Part shown: positions 4,599 through 23,723 of the stretch, piece after piece
How positions within the stretch are numbered: position 1 is the first letter of the stretch
How the letters are laid out: every line of letters begins with the position of its first letter
DNA from: a virus
Reading direction: 5' to 3' (one strand)
IMG/VR virus record: IMGVR_UViG_3300018411_000029
Coordinates: 1-51,307 of that record
DNA: 51,307 bases
The notes under the pieces: generated by a model
What the model saw: only the letters and a program-made list of their open reading frames with translations
What the model was told of the DNA's origin: nothing
The model's database searches: none
Made by a program: the position numbers and the translations under genes

Positions 4599-4904
4599 GA
4601 TGGGGTCCTTGGGTAAAAGTCTAATCTCAAAGGATTGGCCGAACATGACAAATAGTAAAAAATAACTACCATTCCCCTATTGTATAGGAGATGTGCTCCT
4701 GACAGAGTTTTCACTCTGTCGCCAAGGGAGGGTATTTCCTTTTCCTGTGGATCACGTCGTATTTTTAAACGCAACCGTCGGATTGTACGAGCCTAGGAAT
4801 TATAATTCCATTCAAACAATTCATGGCGCTATATAATCCACGTGAATATCACTACGATGTTCACTAGGCCTAGTAAACAACGAAATCTCTCCAAGGAGTA
4901 CACC
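4599..4904. promoter_or_regulatory. Divergent control region of the capsid gene with a cluster of palindromes
   Basis: This 306-bp spacer has no convincing gene. It holds CCTATTGTATAGG (4676-4688), a 7-bp-stem hairpin GACAGAG/CTCTGTC (4701-4720), a perfect 14-nt palindrome GGAATTATAATTCC (4796-4809), an AT box GCTATATAATCC (about 4828-4839), and a perfect 12-nt palindrome ACTAGGCCTAGT (4863-4874) within the capsid leader. A strong AAGGAG ribosome site sits at about 4893-4898. The AT box or the 14-nt palindrome is the likely capsid promoter or operator region; the element at 4676 could serve the minus-strand gene. Which of these is a promoter is inference. Confidence 0.5.
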
Positions 4905-6815
4905 ATGGCAGTTCAAGATAGCCACGACAACAGCAACAACTCGCAGGCGCAGGAGCCGTCCCGCGAACAGGCGAACAGCCGCTCGTCCCGTCCGACCCCT
5001 CAGGAAAACCCGGTCCTGAACGCTGGTCTGCTGGATATCAACCGTCTGCTCGGCAGCCCGATGTCCCGTCGCACCAGCGGTGAATCCCTGGTCAACGCCA
5101 TCAAGGCCGCTAAGTTCTGGTTCTCGGCCGAGCGTCAAGTAGCCGGTGCCGCTGCCATCGACCTGACCAAGATCCAAGTGCTGGGTCTGGACGGTCAGGA
5201 AAACAACGTCAGCATCTCCTCGGTGATCCTGGCGTACCCGATCGAAGATCAGGGCGTTACCAAGGTACTGGTTCACTCGCTGGTGCTGGAAGGCACGCTG
5301 AGCGACGAAACCCCGATCCGCAACGTCGAGATCAACCATCGCACCTACCCGCTGCCGATCATCGCTTCGGATTACGTGACCGAGTCGTACCTCGCCCTCA
5401 TCGACGACATCGTCAAGAAGGCATTCGACCAGTCCCGTCGTTCCGTCGAAGTGATCCGTGGCGGCTGGCGTGTGGTTGACCGCAAGGTCGACTTCAACGA
5501 TCCGGAAACTACCGAAGCGCGTCAGGTCATCTTCTACGCGCAGGCGGCTCTGTCCTCGATGTACAACGAGCTGTACCGCAACGACATGTTCTTCAGCCTC
5601 GAGTGGCTCAACAAGCAGTCCACCCTCGAGATCAACGTCGACATGTCCGGTCGTGAAAGCGTATCCGCCGACGGCCTGCCTCGCCGCAGTGACATCGCGG
5701 TATCGGTTGCAGGTACCGTTCGCAAGGGCGACCAGAACGTCACCGTGCCTCTGGCCAACCTGGGTGGTTACATGAACATCGTGTACACCCCGCCGCAGAA
5801 CGAAGAGCGTTGGGCTCGTGACCGTCGTCGCGATCAGCCGTACTTCACCCCGACGTACATCATCAACCGCATGGACACCAGCGGCAACGCCATCACCCCG
5901 GAGCTCCTGCTCCTGGCACTGGCATCGTCCTCGGTGATCTCCAAGAACCAAGCGTGGGCCCGTACTTTCCTGCCGGGTGAAGTTGCCCGTGGTGAGATCG
6001 ATGCTCGCGACAGCGGTCTGCTGAACATTCTCGGCCCGGATGAAGATCAGCAACCGATCGTGTTCGACAACCGTGGTTCGCTGGACGAAGAGAAGTGGGG
6101 TCAGTACTTCTTCAGTCTGGTCGATGAAAACCTGGTATACGCAATCGAGCTGGAAGAAGGTGGCGACAACAGCTGGCTGACCAGCCTGCTGCTGGATGCT
6201 GCAGACGACACTTCGGCCAACCGCGAAGCTGTTCGCCGTCTGTACGACTACGCTGACCGCCTGACTTCGGGCAACTTCAGCCGTCGTGCTCAAGAGCTGG
6301 GCGTAGAAAACCCACTCGTGATGTCCGGTGCCCGTTACCTGACCGGTACCTGGCTGGACGAGAAGGGCAACGAGCGCGATCTGCGTGAATGGGACCTGCT
6401 CCGTTGGATGGCGCAGAACCCGAACGATGGTGGTGAAAGCGCCCTGCGTTATCAGGACGTGATCGACCGCACTGACCTGGACGTGGAAATCCGCGTATCC
6501 GAGCAGTTCGACCAGCTGACCGGCGCCCTGCAGCAGAACGTCAAGTTCTCCCGCTACGTCGACCTGGCCTTCATCAACCCGCAATTCATCGAAGCGCTGG
6601 CACTGTCGGTGGCCGATTGCAAGATCAACATCGATCAGCGTCAAGCTCACTTCACCTTCGGTGCTCGTCGTCTGCGTGGCAACACTCGCATTCGCGACTT
6701 CCGTGGTGGCGATCTGACCCACGGTCTGCTGAACAGCCGTCGTGTGGTTAATGGCGATCAGCGCAGCCTGCGCAGCCATGTGAGCAACGGCTTCGGTCGC
6801 GGTTCGTCGTTCTAA
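4905..6815 (+). CDS. Major capsid protein (probable), 636 aa
   Basis: The start is ATG 4905, 6 bases after AAGGAG; the frame is open further upstream (to 4842) but without a ribosome site. I call it capsid because the gene has the most extreme codon bias in the window (almost only AAC, CGT, CTG, GTC, GAC), its own leader and terminator, and a size near that of phiKZ capsid protein (about 750 aa before processing). The first ~50 residues are Ser/Asn/Gln/Pro-rich and look like a disordered propeptide; SGES (about residue 58) and SAER (about 72) fit the S/A/G-x-E rule of the phiKZ prohead protease, so N-terminal cleavage is likely. The C-terminus ends in GFGRGSSF. No sequence-level proof of the HK97 fold can be given by eye. 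Confidence 0.8.
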   Translation: MAVQDSHDNSNNSQAQEPSREQANSRSSRPTPQENPVLNAGLLDINRLLGSPMSRRTSGESLVNAIKAAKFWFSAERQVAGAAAIDLTKIQVLGLDGQENNVSISSVILAYPIEDQGVTKVLVHSLVLEGTLSDETPIRNVEINHRTYPLPIIASDYVTESYLALIDDIVKKAFDQSRRSVEVIRGGWRVVDRKVDFNDPETTEARQVIFYAQAALSSMYNELYRNDMFFSLEWLNKQSTLEINVDMSGRESVSADGLPRRSDIAVSVAGTVRKGDQNVTVPLANLGGYMNIVYTPPQNEERWARDRRRDQPYFTPTYIINRMDTSGNAITPELLLLALASSSVISKNQAWARTFLPGEVARGEIDARDSGLLNILGPDEDQQPIVFDNRGSLDEEKWGQYFFSLVDENLVYAIELEEGGDNSWLTSLLLDAADDTSANREAVRRLYDYADRLTSGNFSRRAQELGVENPLVMSGARYLTGTWLDEKGNERDLREWDLLRWMAQNPNDGGESALRYQDVIDRTDLDVEIRVSEQFDQLTGALQQNVKFSRYVDLAFINPQFIEALALSVADCKINIDQRQAHFTFGARRLRGNTRIRDFRGGDLTHGLLNSRRVVNGDQRSLRSHVSNGFGRGSSF

Positions 6816-6912: not shown

Positions 6913-9086
6913 ATGGCCATAAAAGAACGCAATGGCATTTACCTGAGTGTGGTCAACTACGACGACATCTTCCGTCATCAGGCGCATCCTGCGATCCTCA
7001 TGAACGAGTTCAACATCGATCTGGAAGCCGATCGTCTTGAGCTTAATAACCTGATCTATGCCAGTCTTGACGGCGATTCGCTGAACAACACCGCCAGCTG
7101 TGACTGCGGTTCCATTGTCGGCATGGACAATTACAACATCCGTTGCAATAACTGCTTATCGCTGGTTGTCCCGGTTACCGAGAAGCCTCTGGAGTCTATC
7201 CTCTGGCTCAAAGCACCAGCGGGCATTAAAGCATTCATTAACCTTACGGTGTGGCGGATTCTGTCAAAGAACCTCAGCCATTCTAATTTCAACATCCTCG
7301 AGTACCTGACCAATCCCCGTTATCAACCGGCTGCTCCATTGGCTGCCGACAAGATGCGTAAGCTTGAGCGGCTCGAGATCCCACGCGGCTACAACCACTT
7401 CATCGAGAACTATGAAGCCATCCTGGTTGCCCTGGCCAAGGCGTCACTGATTGGTCCGTCTGCCAGCGCCCGGAAACGCCGCAAGATCATGCGCTTCCTT
7501 CAGGAGAATTTCGACCGGACGTTCTCCGAACACCTGCCATTCCCTACTCGCCTTGGCTTTATCCGCGAGTCGTCCAATAACCGGATCGTGTCCGACCCAA
7601 AGATGGTCCCTGCCATCGATGCGGCACACATCCTCATCGGCATCGACAACCGCGAAAACGCGGAGAACCAGCCCAAGCTGCCACAGGCTAACAAAGAAGC
7701 GCGGATGGTCAATGCCCTCAATAACTTCAGCGAGTACTATAAGTCGTTCGAGTCTGAGGTCATCTTTAAGAAGCCTGGGATCATGCGTAAGCTGATCTAT
7801 GGTACCCGGCCATACTGGGGATTCCGTTCGGTCATCACCTCCCGGCAAAAGCCACATCGTCAAGATGGCCTGGAGATGCCGTGGTCGCTAAGTATCTTGT
7901 TGTTCAAGGTCCACCTGCAAAACAAGCTCATGGCGCGGGGCTACACACCCAACGAAATGAATGCCCTGATCTACGAGAACACGTTGCGCTACCACCCGGA
8001 CTTGCACAACCTGCTGAACGAACTGCTGGACGAATCCCCAGGTGGGACCATTCCGACGCTGTTCGCGAGGAACCCCACCTTGACCAGGGGTTCCATAGGC
8101 TACAACCAGATCGATCACTTCAAGACTGACCCGACAGATAACACTGTCAGCATGAGTCCTCTGAACCTGATCGATAAGAATAAGTCACATTGTTCCTTCT
8201 AGGGGCGACTCTAGTCGAAGAACCTCTCTAACTGCTGGAAGACGCTAAAGCTACCTTACCACAACGCAGCTGGAAACGGCATTCGTGACGGTTTGAAAAG
8301 TAGGTAGATGATACAATGGGTCAATCAGCCTCGAAGTCCCTATCGCGCAGGGAAAGGGCCTAACCGTTAATGTGTAATTCATTAACCGAAGCGTATGGGA
8401 TGTGATCAACGACTATCGAAACCTACGGGGAGTAGAGTAGGCCACCAAGCGGGGTCGAAACGGGAGGCATCTCAGTCATGAGATGATGATATAGTCTGGT
8501 ATCCTGGCGTAATTGCCAGGGCTATGCAGGTAATGCTGCGGGGTGACGTTGCGTCTCACCTGAACATACGGCCGATTTCGACGGTAAAGCATTGCCGTCG
8601 TTAAACCTTTTAAATTGACGGGAACGTGCTGAGAGCTTCATCTACCAAGCTACAGTGGAAACACTGAAGTGGCCGAGGGTAACTCCGAGGGTACGGTAAT
8701 AAAGATGAAGATTGCACAATCCGCAGCCAAGACCCTACCGATTGCTGGGAAGCAAGCCAGGGGTACGGTTCATCGACTATCGAAAGGCGTCGGGAGACGA
8801 ACCGAGTAGAGTAGGTCTGGCAATTGACCGAAACAGAAGGTACCTGGTTTTACAGGTAAAGATATAGTCAGGTCATGGGGAAATCCCATGAGTGTCCCCG
8901 GATGCATTATGGGGCGAATTGCCACTGGATAAGCAGACGGCCAAAGCACTGAGTCGATTCGACCCAGTCACAGGCGTCATGGATCTGAACAAACCCTTCA
9001 CAGTTTCCCGTAACACCACCTTGCCGCCACCACTGATTGCCAGCATGACGAACTGGCTGATCGAAGGTGACCAGGTTTCACGATAA
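6913..9086 (+). CDS. RNA polymerase beta' N-terminal subunit, interrupted by two group I introns (spliced product 489 aa)
   Basis: Coding exons are 6913-8181, 8571-8585 and 8901-9086. The spliced protein matches the N-terminal half of bacterial beta': a zinc cluster C63-x-C65-x12-C78-x2-C81; a FRSVIT segment with a following PW-LSILLFK (equivalent to the GRSVI...P..MA.ELF region); RNPTLTRGSI at 386-395 (usual R-PTLHR-SI); and NADFDGD at 423-429, whose three Asp hold the catalytic magnesium. Residue N423 ends exon 1, ADFDG is exon 2, and the third Asp is the first codon of exon 3. Without splicing, exon 1 would run into six intron codons and stop at 8202, giving an inactive product. In phiKZ the corresponding subunit exists twice, in the virion enzyme and in the early-made enzyme; which one this is cannot be decided here. 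The ATG at 6913 is preceded by AAAGGTACTATAC. Confidence 0.9.
8182..8570 (+). ncRNA. Group I intron 1 (389 nt), no endonuclease gene
   Basis: The 5' exon ends in U (AAT codon, 8179-8181) and the intron ends in G at 8570, as group I chemistry needs. Core features by eye: a paired P4-P6-like segment around CTGCTGGAAGACGC...AACGCAGCTGGAAACGG (about 8230-8290), CGACTATCG (about 8409-8417) as the 5' side of P7, and GATATAGTC (about 8489-8497) as its 3' side, with the usual GGGAGTAGAGTAGG between. A short P1 is possible: GTTC at 8192-8195 pairs with exon GAAT through a terminal U-G; it is weaker than in intron 2. There is no open frame large enough for a homing endonuclease. Removing exactly this segment restores the beta' frame. 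Confidence 0.85.
8571..8585 (+). other. 15-nt micro-exon encoding ADFDG of the RNA polymerase active site
   Basis: GCC GAT TTC GAC GGT lies between the two introns and supplies five of the seven residues of NADFDGD, including two of the three metal-binding Asp. Its last seven bases also form the P1 helix of intron 2 with the intron's guide sequence, so the exon is at once coding sequence and ribozyme substrate. Confidence 0.85.
8586..8900 (+). ncRNA. Group I intron 2 (315 nt), no endonuclease gene
   Basis: Splice sites are well supported. P1: intron GCCGTCG (8594-8600) pairs with exon CGACGGT (8579-8585) over 7 bp ending in the required U-G. P10: intron GCATT (8589-8593) pairs with GATGC at the start of exon 3 (8901-8905). 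The intron ends in G at 8900. The core has AATCCGCAGCCAAG (about 8718-8731), ACGGTTCATCGACTATCG as the P6/P7 junction (about 8764-8781), and AAAGATATAGTC (about 8860-8871) closing P7. No protein-coding frame of useful length is inside. A GTG-initiated frame beginning at 8892 is just intron tail plus exon 3. Confidence 0.92.
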
Positions 9087-19357: not shown

Positions 19358-21580
19358 ATGGATGCCACCACTATTCCTTCTGCCGTAGAGCAGATCAACC
19401 AGCGCTACCATAACCTATCGTCAGATAACCCGGTCGAGTTGCGCCCGGAACTCATGTCGCTCTATGGTCTCAACCCATTCATCCGCCACATCTCCGCATC
19501 CCGCGCCGCCATGTTCACCGGCAACCTGGCTCAGATGGTGGTGATCAAGAATCCGATGCGTAAGCGCATCATGACTGGCATGGAACGTGCCTTTGGGGAT
19601 GCAACCTTCTCCATCGAGTTCAAAGACGATGTGGAGATCCTTGAGATCATCCCGCGCTTTGGTCACACCGCCGGTGTCAACCGCATCCGCCATTCCCCAC
19701 AGACTGCAGTGATTTACGAGAACTTCAGTACCGGTGAGATCGGTGTACTGATGTTGACCGACTACAACTGCACCCACCAGCACTTTGGTACGGAGTACAA
19801 GCGTAACCGGGATAATCTTGACCAACTCCGTAAGGGCGCTCGTTTCCCCAAGGGCACCAAGCTGGCTCAGTCACCCCTGATCGATGAATTCGGAAACTAC
19901 ACGTACGGGATCGAGACCAACGTCTTAATGGATTCCGACGTGGCAGGGACTGAAGACGGCGTGAAGGTGCGTCGGGGTTACCTCGAGCGACTGGCTCCCA
20001 CAGGATTTGAGACACGTGTCTTCGAATTCGGTCGCGAATACTACCCGATCAATCAGTCTTCCCAGCCGGGCGTGTACAAGATCATGCCGGACATTGGCGA
20101 GAAAGTAGACTCCAGTGGTCTGCTGGTCTCGTTGCGGCGGTACGATCCGATCAGCGCTGTGTCGAACATGACGGTTGAAGCCCTTCAGCAACCTGACTAC
20201 ATCATGGACCGCAAACGCTTTGTCCAGCATGTCGATGCCGAAGTCGTGGACATCAAGGTTGAGCGCAACACCTCGATCAACATCCCACCGCTACCTATCG
20301 GGATGGATGACCAACTGCTCAAGTACTACAACGCCGATACCGAATGGTACAAGAAGATCATTGACGTCTGGGTCGACCTGAAGCGCCGTTGCAGTCAGCG
20401 CGGTGTTCAGTTGCGCCTCGAGCCTCAGTTTGATCGTCTGGTATATGAGGCCATTGGTCGTGTAGGTCCTGACTACATCCGTCCCGATGCAGGTCTGGGC
20501 CGTCGTGGCGAGGAACCGGGTAAGGTTGATAAAGTCTACCGGGGCGTCAAGCTCGATGCCTGGCGGGTTGAGGTGACCTTCAAGTACTTGTCGGTGCCGA
20601 ACAAGGGTTACAAGATCACCGACATCAACGGCGACAAATCGGTAGTCGTTGAAGTGGTAGACGATGAAGACATGCCCGTCGATGAGAACGGCATCGTGGC
20701 GGACATCGTGGTAGACCCCAACTCCCGTTGGAACCGGGTAACCCCGGCATCCCCGATTGAGATGGTGGTCTCGGCAGCAGGTCGTGACCTGGGCAAGCGC
20801 ATTCAAGCCTCCTTCGGGTTTGACATGAACATCCAGTTGACCGAAGATGAAGTCATGGATGCCGTCATGAGTCCTGACAACCGTGACCTGGTCAAGGTGG
20901 CTTACCAGGAGCTGTTGGAATTCTACAAGGTAGTGGTTCCGTTCCAATACGAAGACATGACCGATCCGGCTTTCCTTAAGAAGAACCCGGAGCACATGTA
21001 CGATCACGTGGCCTCGGTACTGTTGGATCACATGTACGGCCTGTACCTGTTTCACCCCACCGACAACCCGGTGAGCACCCCTGATGTAATCCGTACGATC
21101 AAGGACCGTTGGCCTCCCTTTATCACGCCGGTCCGTTTCCGTGGCCGTGACGGTAAGATGAAGGTATCTCGCGAACCGAAGCTCATCGCCTCGTCGTATT
21201 ACATCAACTTGGAGAAAACTGCCGAGGATTCCTGGATGGCAGCCTCATCTTCCAAATGTAACGTGTTTGGCACTACCGCCCGCCTTAACAACAACGACAA
21301 GTACGATTCACCCGGTCGACAGTCATCGATCCGAGTCGGCGAGTCTGAGTTCCGTTCGGCAGCAGCAGTCTGTGGAGGCGAACCTATCGCAGATCACTAC
21401 GATGCCAGTAACAACCCCATCGCACACAAGTTCGTCTTGCGTCGATTGTTGACACACCCCACTCCCACCAACATCGACGAAGTCCTTGACCGCACTATAG
21501 TGCCAGTGGGTGGACATCGTCCGTTGGCATACGTGCGCCACATGTTCGAATGCTCCGGCAAGTCGTTCACCAACGCCTGA
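19358..21580 (+). CDS. RNA polymerase beta C-terminal subunit, 740 aa
   Basis: The protein corresponds to the second half of bacterial beta. SRAAMFTGNLAQ (48-59) matches the fork-loop SRALMG-NMQRQ motif; EDGVKVRRGYLERL (about 199-212) matches the EDAI-ISERLV region; and RVGESEFRSAAAVCGG (about 658-673) matches the C-terminal R-GEMEVWAL--YGA segment that contacts beta'. The equivalent N-terminal beta half is not in the window. The gene is followed by a hairpin and then by a beta' C-terminal subunit, an arrangement that keeps beta-beta' order as in bacterial rpoBC. By pairing with the larger (688 aa) beta'-C it may belong to the virion enzyme, but that is a guess. Confidence 0.85.
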   Translation: MDATTIPSAVEQINQRYHNLSSDNPVELRPELMSLYGLNPFIRHISASRAAMFTGNLAQMVVIKNPMRKRIMTGMERAFGDATFSIEFKDDVEILEIIPRFGHTAGVNRIRHSPQTAVIYENFSTGEIGVLMLTDYNCTHQHFGTEYKRNRDNLDQLRKGARFPKGTKLAQSPLIDEFGNYTYGIETNVLMDSDVAGTEDGVKVRRGYLERLAPTGFETRVFEFGREYYPINQSSQPGVYKIMPDIGEKVDSSGLLVSLRRYDPISAVSNMTVEALQQPDYIMDRKRFVQHVDAEVVDIKVERNTSINIPPLPIGMDDQLLKYYNADTEWYKKIIDVWVDLKRRCSQRGVQLRLEPQFDRLVYEAIGRVGPDYIRPDAGLGRRGEEPGKVDKVYRGVKLDAWRVEVTFKYLSVPNKGYKITDINGDKSVVVEVVDDEDMPVDENGIVADIVVDPNSRWNRVTPASPIEMVVSAAGRDLGKRIQASFGFDMNIQLTEDEVMDAVMSPDNRDLVKVAYQELLEFYKVVVPFQYEDMTDPAFLKKNPEHMYDHVASVLLDHMYGLYLFHPTDNPVSTPDVIRTIKDRWPPFITPVRFRGRDGKMKVSREPKLIASSYYINLEKTAEDSWMAASSSKCNVFGTTARLNNNDKYDSPGRQSSIRVGESEFRSAAAVCGGEPIADHYDASNNPIAHKFVLRRLLTHPTPTNIDEVLDRTIVPVGGHRPLAYVRHMFECSGKSFTNA

Positions 21581-21603
21581 GTGGGTTATTGTCTCACCCA
21601 ATA

Positions 21604-21625
21604 GACGGGGCCGCGTAGCCCCGTC
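21604..21625 (+). terminator. Hairpin between the two RNA polymerase genes
   Basis: GACGGGGC pairs with GCCCCGTC (8 bp) around a CGCGTA loop. No U-tract follows; it may reduce rather than stop transcription into the beta'-C gene. Confidence 0.6.
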
Positions 21626-21656
21626 ATCACCCCAAGTTTGGCGAGGAAAGTATCGC

Positions 21657-23723
21657 ATGCGCAAAATCAAAGCCAGGGATTTCATGCACCTGGATATCCC
21701 GAAGACATTTCGCGATATGCCAGATGAAAAGCTGGAAATTGAGTTCGATGACGGTGTTCTGGTCACCAACACCCGACGGACCGTCCTCAGCTGGTTCTGC
21801 TGGGAACTGCACCGCAAGTTTCCACGCACCCCCTTGAACATCTGTCACCATGTAGGGAATGCTTTCCCCAGTGCCGACATGGTACCTAAGACACTGTCAT
21901 TGATTGTTCGGGATCTTCATTACACCTACTTCAACAACGTCGGTGATGATCACGACGCGTGCTACGACCGTGAGGCAGCGTGGCGGGTCGTCAAGGACAT
22001 CGGTAACGAGATTTACAACGTCCTGTCCATCGAGCTGGAAGAGTGGCAGGTATCGATCAACGCGTTCCATCTGTTGGAACTGTTCGACTACCCGGCGATT
22101 GCCGAGGTGCGCAAGACCCTCCGTCCCAATCAACTGTCGATCACCAACGCCTACGACACGGCTACCGAGATCCTGATGAAGGACCCGGCGATCCTACATA
22201 ACCCGATTGTCCGTGGCCTGCGAAGCCGTCAGATCAAGATGGGTCAGTTCCTGCAGATTCTGATCTGCCGGGGGTATCTGACCGACCTTGACCAGGTGAT
22301 CTTCCGCAAGCCGATCACGGTAGGGTTCTTCGAAGGCCTGACTACCATGCACGATATCATGATCGAGTCGTGTTCGGCAAAGAAAGCCTTGCTGTTCACC
22401 AAAAAGCCCCTCCGGATCGTCGAGTACTTCAACCGTAAGATGCAGTTGTCTACCACCGTGGTCGACAAGCTAATCTGGGATGATTGCGGCTCCGACATGT
22501 ATTCGGAGATTCCGGTAGACTCGGTGATCTTCCCGTACCTCGATGGAAAGTTCTACCTGAACGAGAAGACCAATCGCCTACAACCAATCACGGCTAGTGA
22601 CAAAGCCGCCTTGGTGGGTAAAACCATCAAGATCCGCTCGGCCTTCTTCTGTCGTCACCGTGGTCGTGGTGAAGTCTGTCACGTGTGTTTCGGTGAACTG
22701 GCCTGGTCGGTACCCCGTGGGACTTCCCTGGGACATGTCTGTGCCACCGAGCTGTGCCGAGAAGGTTCTCAGCGAACCCTGTCGGTCAAGCACCTGGACG
22801 GCTCGTCAGTGGTGGAGGAGATCGTCATCTCTGAGGAGTACCTGCCGTATATCGACGTGTGTGCGTCAGACCCAACTGAGGAGGAGGAACTGCAACACCT
22901 ACTCGGTGGTGAAGAACTGCCAGTGTCGACGAAAGACAGTTCGCTGCTGAAGTTCAACCCCCGCATCAAGCCAATGAAGCCTGTGTTGGTTCTTTCGGCG
23001 GCACCGGACAAGGGCATGGACAATGCGGTGAACCTGGCTACCGTGACCAAGGACACTGTGGTTGATCGCTTGAACATCCACCGCTTCACATCCTTCCGGG
23101 AAGTGCAGCTTCGGGTTACCAACCTGCGCGACGAGACCTTGAGTGTGTTCATCCCTGTTTCTCAGGGTGCACGCATGGCTTCACTGTCGCGGATCATGTT
23201 GCATTACGTACAAGACCACGGCTACACGGTAGACGAAGACGGTAACTATTGCATCGACCTGTCCGAGTGGGAATTTGCAGCCCCAGCATTCTCCCTCCCA
23301 CGTCGCCATGCCAGTACGCTGGACTTCATGGCAGCAGTCGAGGCCTTCATCCGGTCACCAGCAAAGAAATCCGAGCGCAATGGTTTCTCCGGTCGTATGC
23401 TGACAGGCTATACCGATCCGGTGGCAGCCCTGTTGGACTTCAGTGATCTGGTGAACTCCCAACTCTGGGTACACATCAGTCACCTGGAAGTCATCTTGCT
23501 GTCGCTCATGCGACCTGCCGATGACCCCGACGACTATCGCCTACCGAGTATCGATCAACCCATCAAGTTCGAGGAGCACCGCACCCTCATGCAGTATCGT
23601 TCTGGTGGTCAGCAGTTTGCATACGAGCGCCAGCCCGATACCATCGAAGATCCGGACAGCTATCTGATCACCAAGCGCCCAGCCGGGCTGCTCGATCCGT
23701 TTGCATTGCCGGAAGTCATTTGA
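21657..23723 (+). CDS. RNA polymerase beta' C-terminal subunit (larger of two), 688 aa
   Basis: ATG 21657 has GAGGAAAG before it; the frame is open upstream to 21510 without a better start. FRKPITVGFFEGLTTMHD (about 216-233) matches the beta' bridge-helix/trigger-loop segment P-I--NF-EGL---F; the following CSAKKALLFTKKP, FNRKMQLSTTVVD and WDDCGS (about 275-280) match GARKGL-DTA-KT, YLTRRLVDV and DDCGT. A zinc site is visible at about 331-345 (C-x8-C-x2-C with GH-C after it). The C-terminal third is divergent. With the second beta'-C at 32756 this shows that the phage codes for two RNA polymerases. Confidence 0.9.
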   Translation: MRKIKARDFMHLDIPKTFRDMPDEKLEIEFDDGVLVTNTRRTVLSWFCWELHRKFPRTPLNICHHVGNAFPSADMVPKTLSLIVRDLHYTYFNNVGDDHDACYDREAAWRVVKDIGNEIYNVLSIELEEWQVSINAFHLLELFDYPAIAEVRKTLRPNQLSITNAYDTATEILMKDPAILHNPIVRGLRSRQIKMGQFLQILICRGYLTDLDQVIFRKPITVGFFEGLTTMHDIMIESCSAKKALLFTKKPLRIVEYFNRKMQLSTTVVDKLIWDDCGSDMYSEIPVDSVIFPYLDGKFYLNEKTNRLQPITASDKAALVGKTIKIRSAFFCRHRGRGEVCHVCFGELAWSVPRGTSLGHVCATELCREGSQRTLSVKHLDGSSVVEEIVISEEYLPYIDVCASDPTEEEELQHLLGGEELPVSTKDSSLLKFNPRIKPMKPVLVLSAAPDKGMDNAVNLATVTKDTVVDRLNIHRFTSFREVQLRVTNLRDETLSVFIPVSQGARMASLSRIMLHYVQDHGYTVDEDGNYCIDLSEWEFAAPAFSLPRRHASTLDFMAAVEAFIRSPAKKSERNGFSGRMLTGYTDPVAALLDFSDLVNSQLWVHISHLEVILLSLMRPADDPDDYRLPSIDQPIKFEEHRTLMQYRSGGQQFAYERQPDTIEDPDSYLITKRPAGLLDPFALPEVI

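Follow-up and report, generated by a model that had tools for sequence, protein, structure and literature searches.

The gene at positions 6913-9086 of the window (the whole 51,307-nucleotide stretch analyzed here, IMG/VR virus record IMGVR_UViG_3300018411_000029) raises the question of how an RNA polymerase subunit can be made from a gene whose active-site motif is cut in two places, and of how such an arrangement came about. Exon 1, which belongs to the gene for the nvRNAP beta' N-terminal subunit, spans 6913-8181 on the plus strand, as do all features of the window described below, and comprises 423 codons ending in ...DKN (AAT). It is followed by intron 1 (8182-8570, 389 nt, site N423|A424), a 15-nt micro-exon, GCC GAT TTC GAC GGT, encoding ADFDG (8571-8585), intron 2 (8586-8900, 315 nt, site G428|D429) and exon 3 (8901-9086, GATGCATTATGG..., 61 codons plus stop), whose first residue, D429, is the third catalytic Asp. 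Both sites are in phase 0. Joining the flanks of both introns gives the predicted junctions ...AAGAAT|GCCGATTTCGACGGT|GATGCA..., and translation of the exons joined at 8181/8571 and 8585/8901 yields a single 489-residue frame, ...LIDKNADFDGDALWGELPLD..., which ends at 9086 and encodes an intact NADFDGD. A sequence-only reading of this DNA had placed an ADFDG micro-exon within the active-site motif, and its boundaries (389, 15, and 315 nt) prove exact to the base.

The spliced protein matches PHROG 2987 over residues 8-483 (453 bits, profile search) and phiKZ gp55 (7ogp_A) over residues 7-482 (E 1.4e-69), and the predicted product is an nvRNAP beta' N-terminal subunit of the phiKZ gp55 type. 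Directly upstream, as in phiKZ 054-055, lies the gene for chimallin, the phage nucleus shell protein (4842-6815; PHROG 4795, E 1.9e-66; PDB 7sqq/8fne), which places the phage among the nucleus-forming jumbo phages. Profile matches also identify an nvRNAP beta subunit that is the fused equivalent of phiKZ 71-73 (19358-21580) and a further RNA polymerase subunit (PHROG 3015; 21510-23723). The 71-73 equivalent has no intron; in phiKZ, an intron with gene 72 is present there.

Two group I introns had been claimed within 8182-8900, and a covariance search of that interval with RF00028 had been proposed. A scan of the whole window against 4227 Rfam families returned two matches, the sole Rfam matches in the window, both to RF00028 on the plus strand and both aligned to the full model (1-253): 8172-8518 (52.3 bits, E 1.6e-10) and 8576-8891 (61.1 bits, E 3.7e-13). 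Each exceeds the gathering threshold of 50 bits, intron 1 by just 2.3 bits. At both 5' splice sites the exon-terminal U stands opposite a guide G, forming a U.G wobble in P1; the P1 of intron 1 (AAGAAU/GUUCCU) has five of six pairs, with one mismatch or bulge, and that of intron 2 (CGACGGU/GCCGUCG) has seven of seven. Both introns end in a guanosine (G8570 and G8900). P10, in which the 3' exon pairs with the guide, is common in group I introns without being universal; as read from the sequence, intron 2 has such a pairing between GAUGC at the start of exon 3 and GCAUU immediately 5' of the guide, and inspection of intron 1 found no canonical P10. Free-energy folding against shuffled sequences separated intron 2 (z -2.86) and gave no separation for intron 1 (z 0.15). 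When intron 1 was aligned with its counterpart in a relative, L050, 15 of the 95 predicted pairs were kept through changes on both sides. Taken together, these features classify both elements as predicted group I introns, and we infer that both are removed in the cell. Splicing is unproven for both; its support in intron 1 consists of homology, reading frame, and a modest Rfam score, and the case for intron 2 is stronger.

A ribosome on an unspliced intron would stop soon after the intron start and release a chain without the complete metal-binding motif: read-through from exon 1 into intron 1 meets a stop after six codons (KSHCSF-stop), and read-through into intron 2 meets one after ten (TGA at 8616-8618, as read from the sequence). 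In-frame stops in both introns also rule out an intein, and a twintron is ruled out as well, since both cores are complete and a coding exon separates them. Both splicing events would be needed for a complete motif, but the earlier claim that they must occur in order is not supported. P1 and core are separate for the two introns. In the micro-exon, the final bases contribute to the P1 of intron 2 and the initial ones to the 3' site of intron 1; because 15 nt can accommodate both roles simultaneously, the sequence forces no splicing order.

We consider it highly probable that the locus contains two separate selfish group I introns, imported as a block by recombination, and that splicing restores NADFDGD. 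Each intron would fold its own ribozyme core, with the last bases of the preceding exon paired to its guide; guanosine would cut at the guide-paired site and the exons would then join, and once both reactions were done the mRNA would encode an uninterrupted NADFDGD. The selfish introns would have lodged in the part of the gene that is most strongly conserved, from which they could not be lost imprecisely without destroying the enzyme. Their endonuclease genes would have been lost here or never present, and the introns would have reached this lineage as one block from a divergent intron-bearing relative, replacing about 290 bp of exon. The anatomy of the gene, its homology, the recurrence of such introns, and the divergent tract around them are established by computation.

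The tract is apparent in a comparison with L004, an intronless allele whose protein is 98% identical to the spliced protein of the window. Nucleotide identity between the two is 98.6% on the upstream side (-1268 to -251), falls to 82.5% around the introns (-230 to +135), and reaches 100% immediately beyond (+136 to +201). Within the 1470-nt ORF, 64 of the 79 nucleotide differences and all 10 amino-acid differences fall in 291 nt (exon positions -180 to +111), which together with both introns define a divergent tract at approximately 8002-8996. The micro-exon itself differs at 4 of 15 bases, all synonymous. At the cut sites L004 has the codons AAC and GGC and the window AAT and GGT, so that L004 lacks the U which both introns require. 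Such a tract is the trace expected from co-conversion around a newly received intron, although by itself it does not prove the direction and would fit either gain in the window or loss in L004. Inside the tract, 11 of 13 relatives are nearer to L004 than to the window (with one tie; the relatives are not independent of one another), whereas outside it the two are about equally close to them; this contrast favors import into the window's lineage. We infer the direction of transfer and the arrival of both introns in one event.

A sharply bounded tract in a 51-kb metagenomic fragment could also be produced in assembly, through the joining of reads from an intron-bearing strain to the contig of another strain, which would create the double intron along with the divergence. 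We judge this highly improbable, since L050, which derives from another metagenome, has the same two-site arrangement in diverged sequence, other pairs occur in independent contigs, and a real strain with introns at this position would still be required. It is harder still to credit that the gene is decaying, with one or both introns no longer spliced and the polymerase either dead or supplied by another copy. The lack of endonuclease genes in both introns and an intron 1 score barely over the cut-off would suit such decay, but every exon has an open frame, all differences from L004 in the micro-exon are synonymous, there is no amino-acid change in the ORF relative to L004 outside the tract, and intron 1 and its L050 counterpart retain base pairs by compensating changes; furthermore, plaques are strongly reduced when phiKZ 055 is knocked down (PMC12571901).

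As the sequence-only reading had stated, neither intron contains an endonuclease ORF, and a profile search found no HNH_3 domain (PF13392) across the 51-kb record; neither is therefore counted among the autonomous mobile introns. HNH genes are present in related introns at each of the two sites. Given that the window has no intron endonuclease, the transfer was probably made through a donor endonuclease (of the L050 type, in which one intron of the pair carries it) or through ordinary phage recombination.

A tree of intron cores groups intron 1 of the window with intron 1 of L050 (support 95/98; cores 76% identical), and by this grouping the two are orthologous. Intron 2 of the window is unplaced, its nearest relative being that of L094 (69%). 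It does not group with intron 2 of L050, which clusters with introns of L014 and L015 that carry HNH genes (support 100/100), although a common group was not rejected (AU p 0.10); with the second introns ungrouped, the pair need not be a single inherited unit. A duplication that gave rise to both of the window's introns was also considered; the two are not paired in the tree, yet their pairing was not rejected (AU p 0.13). The two introns of another relative, L072 (4262-5650), have cores that are 82% identical and are mutual nearest relatives (support 99/97), which suggests that this pair arose by local duplication, copying, or gene conversion to a site 9 nt away.

Introns occupy many positions around the same motif in related phages. 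Expressed as nucleotides from the start of the Asn423 codon, with boundaries read from the sequence by frame and U/G rules and less certain than those of the window, they lie at -3 (Xanthomonas phage LucasX, L267), -2 (L114), +3, the site of intron 1 in the window (phiKZ, kmuB, KpGz_1, L050), +6 (Proteus phage 7), +9 (L019, L053, AVP1, L072), +10 (L077), +18, the site of intron 2 in the window (L014, L015, L050, L072, L094, L099, L114, L267, L306, L318, Totoro, 2050HW, D3, USC-1), and +21 (PS119XW, PA7). Most of the scanned introns of relatives have RF00028 support, and judging from these positions the DFDGD region is an intron hot spot. Searches of IMG/VR with the pattern ACGGCNGAYTTYGAYGGTRRR gave three chance matches without an intron and missed L050 because the L050 intron ends in TTG. 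Most matches to the site-2 intron patterns were also due to chance, and real introns were retained by requiring core motifs. In kmuB (L031, 3637-3886 and 4156-4476) a second group I intron lies upstream in the gene at HRN|PTLQRGS, and a coding stretch separates its two introns. In the deposited annotations of such genes (L020 7924-10762, which is phiKZ 055-056.1, L031, L023, L028, and others), the polymerase ORF stops within the intron and the final exon is either called a hypothetical protein or missing, with loss of the catalytic motif or the part downstream.

The sequence-only reading had called the exon between two such close introns unusually short; the pair is real, but it is not unique, as double introns in a polymerase DFDGD motif occur in at least five phage sequences besides the window. 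L050, whose exon 1 is 71% identical to that of the window, has both of the window's sites occupied around the same 15-nt exon, GCCGACTTCGACGGT, and carries an HNH gene in its second intron. In L072 the exon is 9 nt (TTTGACGGT) and intron 2 contains an HNH gene; in L114 the exon is 20 nt (TTAATGCAGATTTTGACGGT) and the introns contain no endonuclease genes; in L267 the exon is 21 nt (CCAAATGCTGATTTTGACGGT) and intron 1 holds a long ORF, likely an endonuclease. The virion RNAP beta' gene of the L267 phage holds another pair, at GAD|FD|GDTMS with a 6-nt exon, TTCGAT (L324 reverse complement 1413-2169; G005:C1:19400-20065); its exons, once joined, encode a protein that matches PHROG 2986 over residues 1-525 (591 bits). 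An identical 6-nt exon is present in the virion RNAP beta' gene of L336 (5413-6200), where both introns match RF00028 and exon 1 is 82% identical to that of the L267 phage. At least three further group I intron matches occur in the L267 phage (G005:C1:12154-12448, 14698-15008, and 139912-140239), which by this count is unusually intron-rich.

The recurrence of pairs at the same motif in several lineages could mean that the introns persist because they are of use to the phage, as a switch in which slow splicing or skipping of the micro-exon gives an inactive beta' without ADFDG and thereby delays or tunes the nvRNAP. Skipping, with Asn423 joined to Asp429, would stay in frame because both sites are in phase 0, and SIOphi and Twort orf142 provide documented cases in which a phage exon between two group I introns is skipped (PMC11878797). 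We nevertheless regard both the switch and retention for such use as unlikely: intronless relatives are the majority, with 69 of the 79 best IMG/VR loci uninterrupted and the near-identical L004 among them, the end of exon 1 (AAGAAU) mismatches the guide of intron 2 (GCCGUC), and the introns differ in sequence and origin among hosts.

The reading of two imported selfish introns would mean that self-splicing introns can be dense enough for the motif of an essential polymerase to exist only in RNA, after two ribozyme reactions. As a tentative extension, DFDGD may be a double-occupancy site, with paired introns building up by import and, at least in L072, by local copying, both polymerases of a single phage being affected and exons being as short as 6 nt; pairing might protect against rival homing endonucleases, and splicing before translation inside the phage nucleus might make such dense packing tolerable. 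The natural series of exons of 6, 9, 15, 20, and 21 nt offers a test of the shortest exon that two group I ribozymes can share. The locus also raises the question of where splicing happens in a nucleus-forming phage, and whether it gates transcription. Finally, it carries a warning, in that automatic annotation loses the active site and such polymerase genes are deposited as truncated ORFs and hypothetical proteins.

Micro-exons in mitochondria and multi-intron genes in phages are known; what appears new here is the double occupancy of the polymerase's most conserved motif. The closest known case, which has an equivalent in kmuB, is the intron of phiKZ at gene 55/HNH gene 56/56.1, which lies in the same gene and at the same site, N|ADFDG, as intron 1 of the window. 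The earlier description of phiKZ-type phages as having an intron in a beta-subunit gene holds for 71-73 and is incomplete, since gene 55 is interrupted as well. In phiKZ there is a single intron of 1372 nt at the motif, with an HNH gene, whereas the window has two introns and no HNH gene; kmuB likewise has a single intron of about 497 nt at the motif, its further intron lying upstream in the gene. The annotated phiKZ ORF 055 stops after codon 420, inside the intron, yet native gp55 is a 56-kDa protein whose structure shows DFDGD at residues 417-421 (PMC4666361, PMC8287921); as gp55 is whole, the phiKZ intron is evidently removed in the cell. The papers on the phiKZ nvRNAP structures make no mention of this intron. 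In another jumbo phage, PhiPA3, the gp210 intron, a group I intron in a virion RNAP beta gene, lies beside conserved Asp residues of the polymerase (Birkholz 2024, PMC11620839), but there the subunit is a different one, the intron is single, and it has an active HNH endonuclease that is used against phiKZ.

Our literature search, which covered few subscription journals, found no report of double introns in a polymerase DFDGD motif and no phage exon this short. Phage genes with several group I introns are known from Twort orf142/nrdE, phiNIT1 nrdE, and SIOphi TerL, as are small internal exons and the skipping of an exon (PMC11878797); by our own provisional reading of the genome, phiNIT1 nrdE has a small exon of about 70 nt, compared with 15, 9, and 6 nt in the polymerases described here. 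Exons as short as these are found in the intron-rich genes of mitochondria, including a 1-nt micro-exon between two group I introns in placozoan cox1 (PMC5436844) and micro-exons of 12-15 nt in Armillaria cox1, cob, and cox2 (PMC6506933). Those are organelle genes, for which host splicing factors are possible, and are neither viral nor part of a polymerase catalytic motif. Twintrons, which are nested or fused tandem introns, likewise bring two introns close together, but in a twintron one intron lies inside another or the two are excised as a unit, whereas the introns of the window are each complete, with a coding exon between them.
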